Shown here in pieces: positions 11,789-51,149 of a stretch of DNA of 51,149 nt (position 1 is its first letter; each line of letters starts with the position of its first letter). Source of the stretch: an uncultured Clostridia bacterium (GTDB lineage: Bacteria; Bacillota; Clostridia; Oscillospirales; Oscillospiraceae); assembly GCA_946061515.1 (NCBI GenBank), contig CAMGRL010000012.1:1-51149 (forward strand), in the 5' to 3' direction. The translations under genes and the position numbers were made by a program. The notes below the pieces were generated by a model. That model did not search any database. It had not been told where the DNA came from and saw nothing but the letters and a program-made list of their open reading frames with translations.

Positions 11789-11908
11789 AGGCTCCCCTTG
11801 TCAGGGGAGCTGTCACGGCAAAGCCGTGACTGAGGGGTAGTCAAAGGTAGCGATGAGGCAAACCCCTCCGCTTCGCTTCGCTCAGCACCTCCCCTGTTAG
11901 GGGAGGCT
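11789..11908. repeat. Gene-less hairpin repeat related to the DUF559 element
   Basis: The left end is GCTCCCC-6 bases-GGGGAGC (11791-11810), then a GTCACGGC-aaa-GCCGTGAC hairpin (11812-11830), then TGAGGGG. The right end is CACC followed by the stem CCTCCCC-GGGGAGG (11888-11906) and CT. The same succession of stems borders the DUF559 gene near 50.5-51.0 kb; here only about 24 bases lie between the ends. It looks like a non-autonomous (MITE-like) relative of that element. Confidence 0.7.
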
Positions 11909-11944
11909 GTACGCCGCGCGGTAAAAGCCTTCCCCGTTTTTCCC

Positions 11945-48561: not shown

Positions 48562-49620
48562 TTATTTTCTGCGGGAAGTCCGGTTTATTTTTGCGATATT
48601 CTTGAATTTCGCGTTCTTTTCGGCCAGATATCCCTCGGTGTCATCCATGTACCTGCTCTCCGTTTTCAGCTTTTGATAGGACAGCCAGCGCGCTTCGGAA
48701 AGCTCGCCCTGGGCCAGGGCAGCCCGGACGGCACAGCCGGGCTCGTTTGTATGGCCGCAGTTGCGAAAACGGCACCTGGCCGCCAGAGCTTCAATGTCGG
48801 AAAAGCTTTTCTCCAGTCCCTCTTCGCTTTCCCACAGGCCCAGCTCCCGCATTCCCGGCGTGTCGATGACCATGCCGCCCTGTTTCAGCAAAAACAGTTC
48901 CCGCCGTGTTGTTGTATGCCGGCCCCGGCCGTCGCCGCGCAGGCCATTTGTATCCAGCCGGTCCTCTTCCAGCAGCCGGTTGATCAGCGTCGATTTGCCC
49001 ACGCCGGAGGAGCCGATCAGGGCGACGGTTTTCCCTTCCACGATATAGGGCAGGAGCTTTTCATATCCGTCCGGATCCATGGCCGAGCACAGAAGGATAT
49101 CCACCCCGAAGGCGACAGACTGGACCTGCCGGATGAAATGCGCCGGGTCCGGACACAGATCGGCTTTCGTCAGGACGATGACTGGGCTTGCCCCGCTGTC
49201 CCAGGCAAGGGCCAGGCAGCGCTCCAGCCTGCGGAGATTGAAATCCTGGTTGAGGGACGTACAGATAAACACGGTGTCAATGTTGGCGGCGACCACCTGC
49301 TCTGCACAGCCCGTCCCGGCGGCTTTGCGGATAAAAACGCTTTTTCTTGGCAAAACACCGTGTATGATGGCGTGACCTTGCTGAGAATGAGGGTCGATCA
49401 TCACAAAATCACCCACGGCGGGATAGTCCGAGGGGCTTGTTGCGTGGTAACGCAGTCTGCCGGACACCTCCGCCAGCTGCTCGCCCCCTTCACTGACCAG
49501 GCGGTAGAGACCCTTCTCCTGAGAGAGGATCCGGCCGATAACAAAGCCCTCATCACAGGCCTGCGCGGCTTCCGCATATTGCCCCAGCAAGCCGTAGGCG
49601 GACATATCTACTTTGGTCAT
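48562..49620 (-). CDS. rsgA: Ribosome small subunit-dependent GTPase A (RsgA/YjeQ-like)
   Basis: RsgA is a circularly permuted GTPase that checks late 30S assembly. The 352-residue protein has an OB-like N-terminal domain, G4 LTKADL, G1 GSSGVGKST near 207, the switch region GRGRHTTT, G3 DTPGMRE and the zinc site CRFRNCGHTNEPGC. It is longer than the roughly 290-residue Bacillus type and closer to the E. coli YjeQ length. Its ATG overlaps the TetR stop by 4 bases. Control by a TetR repressor is unusual for a housekeeping GTPase, so it may be a second, specialised copy. Confidence 0.9.
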   Translation of the reverse strand: MTKVDMSAYGLLGQYAEAAQACDEGFVIGRILSQEKGLYRLVSEGGEQLAEVSGRLRYHATSPSDYPAVGDFVMIDPHSQQGHAIIHGVLPRKSVFIRKAAGTGCAEQVVAANIDTVFICTSLNQDFNLRRLERCLALAWDSGASPVIVLTKADLCPDPAHFIRQVQSVAFGVDILLCSAMDPDGYEKLLPYIVEGKTVALIGSSGVGKSTLINRLLEEDRLDTNGLRGDGRGRHTTTRRELFLLKQGGMVIDTPGMRELGLWESEEGLEKSFSDIEALAARCRFRNCGHTNEPGCAVRAALAQGELSEARWLSYQKLKTESRYMDDTEGYLAEKNAKFKNIAKINRTSRRK

Positions 49621-50252
49621 GGCCCTTTCCTTTCCTCTGTCCCGACGGCGTTCATCTGAATAAACCGCGCAATATGGCCCTCCAGCAGCGTGGTCAAGGC
49701 TGCCTTATCGTCCGCCTGGTCCCACATGCCAATGAGCAAATAGAGCGGGGCATAGTAAGCAAGGGCAAGCTGCTTCGGGTCGGCCTCCCGGAGTACGCCC
49801 TTTTTACTCATTTCGCGGAAAATGTCCTCCATATAGGCCACCGGTCCGGCCACAAGGCAGCTGTTGTATAATTCCGCCATTTCCGCGCTGCGGTATTGCT
49901 CCAGCGTCAGCATCTTACGGAAATGGGAGGCGAAGTCATCCACTGTCCAGAAAACAAACTGGGCCAGGGTAAAGCGCCGGATATTCTCCAGAGAGACGTC
50001 TTCATAGGTCTCCGGCGACTGGTCAAATTGCTCTTCCGGCACCTCGTATTGCCGGGACCGCTCCGCGTCCACCTGGAACATCCGGGCCACAATACTGTCA
50101 AAAATATCCCGTTTGTTTTTGTAGTGCTTATATAAAGCCCCTTTGGTTATGCCCAGCTCGCCAGCAATATCACTGACGGAAACCGCCTCATAGCCCTCTC
50201 GGGCAAATAAGCGGAGCGCGGCCATCAGGATCTTTTCCTTTGTGTCTGTCAT
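49617..50252 (-). CDS. TetR/AcrR family transcriptional regulator
   Basis: The 211-residue repressor has the TetR helix-turn-helix at its N-terminus (KEKILMAALRLFAREGYEAVSVSDIAGELGITKGALYKHYKNKRDIFDSI, about 5-55); the rest is a ligand-binding helical domain. ATG 50252 is preceded by GAGGAAGG. It leads an operon with rsgA and a methyltransferase. A perfect inverted repeat lies just upstream over the transcription start, and a degenerate second copy in the promoter spacer, so it almost certainly represses its own operon. Confidence 0.9.
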   Translation of the reverse strand: MTDTKEKILMAALRLFAREGYEAVSVSDIAGELGITKGALYKHYKNKRDIFDSIVARMFQVDAERSRQYEVPEEQFDQSPETYEDVSLENIRRFTLAQFVFWTVDDFASHFRKMLTLEQYRSAEMAELYNSCLVAGPVAYMEDIFREMSKKGVLREADPKQLALAYYAPLYLLIGMWDQADDKAALTTLLEGHIARFIQMNAVGTEERKGP

Positions 50253-50268
50253 GCTGTCCTTCCTCTCA

Positions 50269-50292
50269 TTTGGTAAACGAACGTTTACCAAA
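50269..50292. promoter_or_regulatory. TetR operator
   Basis: The arms TTTGGTAAACG and CGTTTACCAAA are perfect 11-base inverted repeats around two bases. The site covers the predicted transcription start of the TetR operon. A degenerate second site (GTAAAC...GTTAC, 50299-50313) lies between the -10 and -35 boxes. Confidence 0.85.
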
Positions 50293-50321
50293 AGTATAGT
50301 AAACAATCGTTACCTTGTCAA
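50293..50321 (-). promoter_or_regulatory. Promoter of the tetR-rsgA-methyltransferase operon
   Basis: On the - strand, TTGACA (50316-50321) and TATACT (50293-50298) are 17 bases apart, with operator-like sequence in the spacer. Confidence 0.8.
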
Positions 50322-50352
50322 GAGGCAATTCAAGATACCTGCCCGGGCATAC

Positions 50353-50386
50353 AGGCAAAAAAACACCCTGCCGAGAATGGCAGGGT
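50353..50386 (-). terminator. Leftward terminator between the DUF559 element and tetR
   Basis: ACCCTGCC and GGCAGGGT form a stem with a 6-base loop (50365-50386); on the - strand it is followed by GTTTTTTTGCC. It shields tetR from leftward transcription out of the DUF559 element. Confidence 0.75.
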
Positions 50387-50492
50387 TCCCTCATCAAAGG
50401 GAGGCATTGGCGTGGTGCGAAATCGCACACTATGCACAGCTTCGAACGGCGTACAAAAGTGTATCCTTAACCGTTCGGCAAATTGGAAGTTG
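50387..50492. repeat. Outer direct repeat, left copy (106 bp)
   Basis: It matches 50972-51077 at the same length with about 14 differences (87%). It begins with TCCCTCATCAAAGGGAGG, a worn version of the right-hand stem of the DUF559 element, then a GTGCG-aaat-CGCAC hairpin and CGAACGGCGTACAAAAGT. It looks like the right end of a former element copy. Confidence 0.75.
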
Positions 50493-50538
50493 TTTTCGGC
50501 TTGAGTACAGGAAATGATGAGGGTGGCGTCTACAGCCC

Positions 50539-50588
50539 AAGGCTCCCTCTGATGAGGGAGCTGTCAGCGAAGCTGACTGAGGGAGAGA
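50539..50588. repeat. Left inverted repeat of the DUF559 element
   Basis: The unit is AAGGCTCCCT-ctgat-GAGGGAGC, then the hairpin GTCAGC-gaa-GCTGAC (50563-50577), then TGAGGGAGAGA. It is an inverted counterpart of 50935-50993. The stop codon and last codons of the DUF559 gene lie inside it. Confidence 0.8.
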
Positions 50589-50932
50589 CGCTTAACGGTC
50601 AGATCAATATATTCGCATACACCACGAAAATTACGGTCAATATCCAGATTGCAAATTCTTACTACCGTTAGATTCATGGACTCCAGGTCTTTTGTGCGCA
50701 GCGCATCTTTTTCGGCCTGCTCTGCTGTATAATGTCCGCCGCCGTCAAGTTCAATGACCAGCCTTGCTCTTGCGCAATAGAAATCTGCAATGTAATTACC
50801 AATTGCTTTTTGCCTTTGAAAGCGCACCGGGTAGGTTCTCAAAAAATCATACCACAGTTTCCGTTCCCATGGGGTCATATTCTTTCGGAGTGCCTTTGCA
50901 AGAGGGATATTCTCTTTATTATAGTCTTTCAT
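50564..50932 (-). CDS. DUF559 family endonuclease-like protein
   Basis: The 122-residue protein has the DUF559 fold, related to Vsr-type PD-(D/E)xK nucleases: RKNMTPWERKLWYDFLRTYPVRFQRQK, then IADFYCARARLVIELDGGGHY (catalytic acids), and VVRICNLDIDRN. No target is known for the family. Both ends are made by repeats: GGAGG upstream of ATG 50932 belongs to the right inverted repeat, and the last seven residues (SLSQLR with its preceding Leu) and stop are in the left one. The gene is AT-richer than the host genes. It may act on its own repeat family, as transposase-like nucleases do; this is inference. Confidence 0.82.
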   Translation of the reverse strand: MKDYNKENIPLAKALRKNMTPWERKLWYDFLRTYPVRFQRQKAIGNYIADFYCARARLVIELDGGGHYTAEQAEKDALRTKDLESMNLTVVRICNLDIDRNFRGVCEYIDLTVKRLSLSQLR

Positions 50933-50934
50933 TT

Positions 50935-50993
50935 TCTCTCCCTCCGTCAAAAATCAAAGATTTTTGACACCTCCCTCATCAGAGGGAGGCTTT
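50935..50993. repeat. Right inverted repeat of the DUF559 element
   Basis: TCTCTCCCTCC is followed by the hairpin GTCAAAAATC-aaa-GATTTTTGAC (50946-50968), then ACCTCCCT-catcag-AGGGAGG and CTTT. Its outer parts are complementary to 50539-50588, while the inner hairpin differs in sequence but keeps the GTCA...TGAC base and the RAA loop. Confidence 0.8.
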
Positions 50994-51077
50994 GGTGCGG
51001 TGCGAAATCGCACACTACGCTCGGCATCGAACGGCGTACAAAAGTATACCCTTAACTGTTCGGCAAATCGGGATTTG
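50972..51077. repeat. Outer direct repeat, right copy (106 bp)
   Basis: Partner of 50387-50492. It overlaps the right inverted repeat and extends about 85 bases beyond it, so the mobile unit may include this tail. Confidence 0.75.
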
Positions 51078-51090
51078 AGGCATTCCAAAG

Positions 51091-51149
51091 CCTTCCCCTT
51101 GAGTAAACGCTGAATAATTCGACAAAATGAAAAGTACATGAAACATGAA
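51091..51149. repeat. Partial end of a second TTAAGTAAACG-type element
   Basis: CCTTCCCCTTGAGTAAACGC and the next 11 bases match the inverted complement of the right end of the 24753-24919 element with 4 differences in 31. AGTAAACG, TGA, TAA, TCG and CAA also match its left end in order. The copy is cut by the window edge. Confidence 0.45.

Follow-up and report, generated by a model that had tools for sequence, protein, structure and literature searches.

The DUF559 nuclease gene near the right end of the 51,149-nt stretch of DNA analysed here (the window, from an uncultured Oscillospiraceae genome, G000) is best explained as part of a mobile element. We put at roughly two in three the probability that the gene and the hairpin arms on either side of it form one element, IS-like or REP-like, that ends in hairpins and is mobilised by its own PD-(D/E)XK nuclease. 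That gene and arms constitute a unit which has moved in the past is well supported by comparison of copies and sites. That DUF559 is the mobilising enzyme we infer from correlation, as the simplest reading of cognate ends, of co-occurrence and of a RAYT control that failed. To our knowledge, the classification of bacterial insertion elements rests on enzyme chemistry, and a lone PD-(D/E)XK nuclease on hairpin ends belongs to none of the standard kinds; such a mobile repeat system would be of a kind not recognised so far.

The gene (50564-50932, minus strand) is framed by LE and RE, a pair of double hairpins that are inverted relative to each other but not alike. In a Pfam profile search its product matches PF04480 (DUF559) at E 1.2e-26, with 93.2 bits against a curated cut-off of 20.6. 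Further Pfam matches of this gene, the only one in the unit, are to MTES_1575 and DUF2726, and the PDB yields a single sequence match at E up to 0.1, 3hrl, an Endonuclease-Like Protein (8.7e-18). E23, D50, E61, D63 and H67 are invariant in 43 DUF559 sequences (conserved acidic active-site positions), and we presume from the superfamily motif that these residues are catalytic. The start codon is better set at the ATG at 50932, giving 122 aa, than at the mechanically chosen TTG at 50950; a Shine-Dalgarno site, GGAGGG at 50945-50940, sits 7 nt ahead of this ATG within the RE arm. At the other end, the last seven sense codons (LSLSQLR) and the stop (50564-50566) fall inside the LE arm.

Both arms follow one plan, two tandem hairpins and then an unpaired G-rich tail. 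LE (50541-50587, plus strand) reads GGC, stem 1 as CTCCCTC-TGAT-GAGGGAG, TGTC-AGC-GAA-GCT-GAC (stem 2 between TGTC and GAC) and then TGAGGGAGAG. RE (50936-50990, minus strand) keeps this plan with another, longer second stem (AAAAATC/GATTTTT) followed by GACGGAGGGAGAG, and its GGAGGGAGAG tail is the ribosome binding site. A repeat finder recovers inverted arms at 50536-50566 and 50965-50995 (31 nt, 90%) and a second inverted pair at 50574-50588 and 50935-50949. Folded as single-stranded DNA, the four strands of LE and RE give z scores of -5.1 to -8.5 (-5.1 for LE and -6.7 for RE on the strands given above), with 0/200 shuffles equally stable for each strand, and our covariance model R1, derived in part from these arms, gives 68.3 bits for LE and 59.7 bits for RE. 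Repeat finder, Pfam and sequence thus agree with the first-pass annotation of this DNA, which had described a DUF559 gene bounded by inverted hairpins that supply its ribosome binding site, its final codons and its stop. A known RNA family was rejected as the identity of the hairpins: no Rfam match reached the gathering score in 49000-51149, and only four matches below threshold, at E up to 0.1, were found in 50300-51149.

The same annotation held that outer direct repeats of 106 bp flank the unit. Such repeats exist (50387-50492 and 50972-51077, 106 nt, 87% identity by the repeat finder), but they lie outside the general unit and were rejected as element ends, the gene and its arms being found without the tail in relatives (such as L064, L066 and L069). 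The right-hand repeat (plus strand) is the RE foot with a genus-specific outer tail, which a second copy of the unit shares up to 51077, and the left-hand repeat (plus strand) is a truncated relic of another RE foot and tail. Ahead of LE lies a left outer extension (50477-50540, plus strand) that also precedes two gene-less copies, on contigs C31 and C6 of the same genome, with matches of 95% and 89% from query positions 91 and 92. The window holds a second LE/RE-like pair, gene-less and of a different hairpin subtype, at 11790-11912, where R1 scores 48.1 bits (11790-11840) and the inverted partner was recognised by eye; this pair directly follows a terminator-like hairpin.

The genome of the window carries three DUF559 genes. 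One of them, on contig C4 (L003), belongs to a second copy of the unit, with 94.5% identity over 550 bp (50528-51077) and a match that stops there on both sides. The two DUF559 genes differ by dN 0.007 and dS 0.149, i.e. a dN/dS of 0.05 (by NG86, which is saturated for distant pairs). The third gene, on C9, has a different hairpin subtype on both sides. In the relative G557, contig C72 contains the left flank of the C4 element (88%) with the element absent and other tail-like repeats there, and an 85%-identical element lies on contig C67, at a different place. Insertion sites of the unit therefore vary between copies. A scan of viral contigs returned no relative, and a phage collection gave four matches, two of them covering at least 80% of the query; one phage match, L175, was read and does not enter the counts given here. 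Single arms are also found repeated, with three matches 207 nt apart in C16:165-625 of G000 and three head-to-tail arms of ~47 nt each downstream of DUF559 at L032.

Inverted pairs of arms are present without the gene. Using a 153-nt LE-spacer-RE query we identified 17 gene-less copies, 5 in G000 and 12 in the relative G588, with two cut short at one end (the C9 copy of G000 and one in G588). At E 1e-12, 7/61 genomes of the genus have any match to this query, whether a gene-less copy, a gene-bearing unit or a single arm. Ten of the 17 spacers were tested, and nine match the C-terminal coding stretch of DUF559 with 0 to 5/500 shuffles as good (25/500 for the tenth). Because most tested spacers hold such a scrap, the gene-less copies would descend from gene-bearing ones, and most look like internal deletions of the gene-bearing element. 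Across 11 gene-less copies of G588, identity is 96% for the arms and 66% for the spacers. Column by column it is mostly 0.8-1.0 in the arms, about 0.25 on the left beyond position -5 and 0.2-0.7 on the right. For a mobile unit the first-pass annotation had expected aligned copies to have defined boundaries; this holds for the left boundary, the right one being less sharp.

These copies bear on a homing-type explanation, in which gene-less pairs are vacant targets that DUF559 cuts, with the gene then copied in by repair through the arms. The position of the gene between arms that also occur gene-less would fit this, and Vsr-fold nucleases are known among homing enzymes. We nevertheless consider homing quite unlikely, since the coding scraps in most tested copies point to descent from gene-bearing copies and since one gene-less copy occupies a site that is hairpin-free in the relatives read, which homing alone fails to explain. 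This copy, in G588, lies between two sites that we take, from their motif, to be parS-like, with what looks by eye like a ParA gene downstream. Its matched flanks are about 300 nt apart, compared with 65, 19 and 22 nt in the relatives G561, G557 and G552. Three further relatives (G548, G562, G567) have longer, unrelated gaps, and by eye the hairpin pair is in none of the six. The G588 site differs from those of its relatives by more than the gene-less unit, and no base-exact empty site was found. The G000 copies on C31 and C38 are likewise absent from the corresponding intergenic places in G557, which hold other inserts. By eye, the inserts at L278 (G557 C45) and L279 (G557 C31) comprise a small SdpI-like-looking ORF and a longer gene-like stretch, as if these were insertion hotspots.

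The proposal that the unit is mobile is thus borne out by the C4 copy, by the gene-less copies and by sites in relatives that lack the pair. No target-site duplication was detected at 14 gene-less copies, where the mean flanking direct repeat is 1.4 nt vs 1.7 nt in mismatched controls. Single-strand transposition or gene conversion between arms would be easier to reconcile with this result than ordinary DDE transposition.

Hairpins accompany DUF559 in relatives. At 89/108 DUF559 loci of this and related genomes, flanking inverted repeats score above the 99th percentile of 1230 controls drawn from the other ORFs at these loci, with a median of 19 vs 8; 4/112 loci were dropped for short flanks. 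Of the 105 loci used out of 112, 84 have a pyrimidine-stem hairpin upstream and 88 downstream within 150 bp; 77 have one on both sides, 18 on one side and 10 on neither, against a background of 46/2748 windows. Loci L061-L140, the 80 best of at least 572, resemble the window protein and hence are not independent. DUF559 homologues mostly without these repeats had been named in the first-pass annotation as a finding that would refute a mobile unit, and we observe the opposite. Moreover, GGAGGG stands 5-9 nt ahead of the start in 56/74 window-type loci, and wherever an LE arm is recognisable the frame enters it (62/62), the stop lying inside the arm in 20 cases and beyond it in 42.

To judge from 41 distinct arms, the arms conserve their structure while their sequence changes. 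Standard pair cells make up 89.7% vs 72.3% in shuffles, cells changed on both sides number 103 vs 38, and the covariation score is 0.487 vs 0.189 (0/500 shuffles as high); the covariation counts of pairs and of pair types are not above shuffles (399 and 387 of 500). Stem 2 varies freely in sequence and length with its pairing kept.

Moreover, within a genome an arm matches the partner arm of its own copy better than it matches arms of other copies (median 16, n=38, vs 9, n=78; p 2.7e-6), and by genome mean 13/14 multi-copy genomes are positive, with one tie. This comparison did not use L335 and L336, whose partner copies are absent from the set, nor L003, a near copy of L002, and the flank scores of 10/39 copies in the multi-copy set do not exceed the 99th percentile of the controls. 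Four hairpin types accompany the four DUF559 genes of G557. Similarity of DUF559 proteins correlates with similarity of arms (Mantel r 0.41 and 0.37, p 0.002, uncorrected for genome relatedness, with 4/83 dropped). Counting against such pairing, the 12 gene-less copies of G588 are CTCCCTC-type, but the only DUF559 gene detected there (L248) is followed by CTTCCCC-type arms. Taken together, one nuclease, two unlike ends, gene-less derivatives with those ends and matched ends suggest an autonomous element with non-autonomous kin.

Hairpin number also follows the gene. Among 61 genomes of the genus the median number of arms is 42 with DUF559 (n=31) and 1 without (n=30; p 6e-7), and at a completeness of at least 90 it is 36.5 (n=14) vs 1 (n=10; p 0.002). 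In 150 genomes of the family, at least five hairpins occur in 37/42 with DUF559 vs 22/108 without. Within genera, 13/15 contrasts are positive and two are ties (p 7e-4); these 15 are the contrasts that could be paired among the genomes listed, and they are the only correction of the hairpin-count p values for relatedness. The hairpin model was built partly from DUF559 flanks, each DUF559 copy can itself add about two matches, and counts top out at 'at least 96' in the genus sample and 'at least 39' in the family sample. Large-ORF matches (G601, G570:C20) were not counted as DUF559 in the genus sample, here and in the Y1_Tnp tests, and weak matches (G028, G031, G123) were counted as without DUF559 in the family sample. 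Two groups of genomes count against the relation: hairpin-rich ones (at least 15) without detected DUF559 (7/30 in the genus sample, 16/108 in the family sample) and DUF559 genomes with three hairpins or fewer (3/31 and 5/42).

The first of these groups would be expected if DUF559 were a passenger, i.e. cargo caught between two hairpins that are moved by another enzyme, whether RAYT/Y1 or some other transposase, and arms do far outnumber the gene in many genomes. However, Y1_Tnp, the sole transposase family scanned, fails to predict hairpins in the 61 genomes (p 0.19 for presence, 0.88 for strong matches), the relation between hairpins and DUF559 remains in genomes without Y1_Tnp (p 0.001), and G588 has at least 96 hairpins and no Y1_Tnp match. 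Y1/RAYT was therefore rejected as the driver. Nor need a passenger match its own arms inside one genome or recur as a bounded gene across several phyla, and we regard the passenger explanation as unlikely.

Recurrence across phyla was assessed at 19 DUF559 genes from Deinococcota, Cyanobacteriota and Pseudomonadota, chosen roughly one per lineage from 43 records of a plasmid collection; a 20th non-Bacillota locus (L312, Neisseria) was read by eye only. A C/G-stem hairpin within 200 bp is found on at least one side at 17/19 and on both sides at 11/19, against a background of 8/221 windows, and 11/19 pass the 99th-percentile inverted-repeat test. In three Deinococcus species DUF559 sits at three different places of an hpa gene cluster. 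At the oxidoreductase/hpaE junction, which is filled in strain NW-56, the two genes of D. proteolyticus overlap by 4 bp, and D. psychrotolerans has the hairpin within inverted ends of about 58 bp. Hairpins flank two DUF559 units of Sphingomonas parapaucimobilis (L283, L289) on both sides; these units lie inside operons, between sufB and sufC and between genes for transhydrogenase subunits. A Sinorhizobium query matched 117 plasmid records at 558 places, and in most of the matches listed the hairpin stretch is the matched part.

The E. coli K-12 homologue, ycjD, is itself a DUF559 gene, and a query containing this gene is matched at one place over at least 80% of its length in 3333/5426 E. coli genomes. 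Both ycjD and the Picosynechococcus gene failed the strict hairpin rule on both sides; a G/C hairpin lies about 170 bp downstream of ycjD, and the Picosynechococcus hairpins are shorter-stemmed. Two candidate empty sites from these groups were rejected. S. meliloti Ak57, compared with K101, has a deletion inside DUF559 that ends in the hairpin: most of the gene is gone and the deletion runs to the downstream hairpin (L270 vs L172). The one ycjD-less E. coli strain that was opened, CE-O153H30 (L177), is not a clean site, with tetR and RND efflux genes adjoining fabI there. An E. coli RND pump is reportedly the subject of a 2026 paper (PMC12817139).

Vsr is a repair enzyme, whereas the window-type gene is repeat-bounded and multi-copy. 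YcjD has been predicted to be a PD-(D/E)XK relative of Vsr (PMC1189080), and VsrA, a DUF559 protein of Caulobacter, is reportedly required for the DNA damage (SOS) response of a mutant lacking its cytosine methylase (PMC12907096). The statement in the first-pass annotation that DUF559 proteins have no established role is thus partly out of date. The Caulobacter report, together with a PADLOC match, weak at 5.3e-07, to a methyl-directed restriction enzyme, would suit a gene with a host function, namely a nuclease of Vsr-like type in repair or restriction whose hairpins are regulatory or by-products. We find this very improbable, given that DUF559 is present in 45/150 family genomes (weak matches included), that it reaches five copies in one genome (G581) and that repeats enclose it at most loci tested.

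Among known systems, REP/REPIN-RAYT systems (REPtrons) are close in behaviour, and the likeness to them that had been pointed out at first reading is a good one in this respect: in both, a small nuclease gene is flanked by hairpin repeats that are also found as inverted pairs and as singles, and repeat number is higher with the enzyme gene, as reported for REPINs in E. coli (PMC8049555). However, the DUF559 enzyme is PD-(D/E)XK and not Y1/HUH, there is no Y1/HUH transposase in the unit, and hairpin number is unrelated to Y1_Tnp presence in the 61 genomes, so that Y1 transposases fail to explain the repeats. The DUF559 unit further differs in its two unlike double-hairpin ends, in a gene-bearing copy that occurs twice at different loci and in the absence of the GTAG foot from the two window arms, which were the arms scanned. 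The unit thus resembles REP/RAYT in behaviour but falls outside that group. DUF559 arms recall CGTC-tagged REPs in being palindromic and in occurring in several phyla. These REPs are reportedly without a dedicated transposase or known mobiliser (PMC3733652), and 'DUF' occurs 0 times in the main text of that paper. The gene-less copies also resemble MITEs, being short and multi-copy, looking like internal-deletion derivatives and sharing both ends with a gene-bearing parent. Unlike MITEs and their parent insertion sequences, the DUF559 unit has no DDE transposase, shows no detected target-site duplication and ends in hairpins.

If the element is mobilised by its own nuclease, DUF559 may recognise the folded arms, as cruciforms or as single strands, e.g. 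on the lagging-strand template, and would then nick or cut at the ends, at the feet of the arms. The gene-bearing element could in this way be copied or moved into intergenic sites, and gene-less pairs and single arms might follow in trans. Strand movement could take the form of IS200/IS605-like single-strand transposition, double-strand excision or break-induced gene conversion between arms; the data separate incompletely from transposition a variant in which breaks stimulate gene conversion between the arms.

More broadly, we lean towards the view that bacteria of at least four phyla carry a class of mobile elements, marked by DUF559, whose one small PD-(D/E)XK nuclease works on double-hairpin ends in pairs. 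Many orphan G/C-rich palindromic repeats would then have DUF559 as their dedicated enzyme, and the system would be a counterpart of REP/RAYT that arose independently and cuts by another chemistry. We found no paper in an open-access library that links DUF559 to such repeats. If true, this would explain the origin of much dispersed intergenic hairpin DNA and would give DUF559, a family annotated as of unknown function, a role as a mobiliser, for which it is a testable candidate with a homologue in E. coli K-12.

Lastly, other repeats surround some of the units. A larger envelope around several units of the genus is visible at L003 (1363-1425) and in the flanks of L061, L001 and L209. It consists of a box like TTCGTAAAACAGTTAA and then a terminator-like hairpin on one side and of GTGCGCCCTTATCTGTTCGACAAATTGGAATTTG on the other. 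On C38 this box stands at both ends in inverted orientation, which looks like a further repeat family. Palindromes in intergenic tails, such as TTCGACAAATTCCAATTTGTCGAA at L065 and GCGCACTTCTATACA..TGTATAGAAGTGCGC at L200 (C72 of G557), appear to be a separate palindromic repeat.
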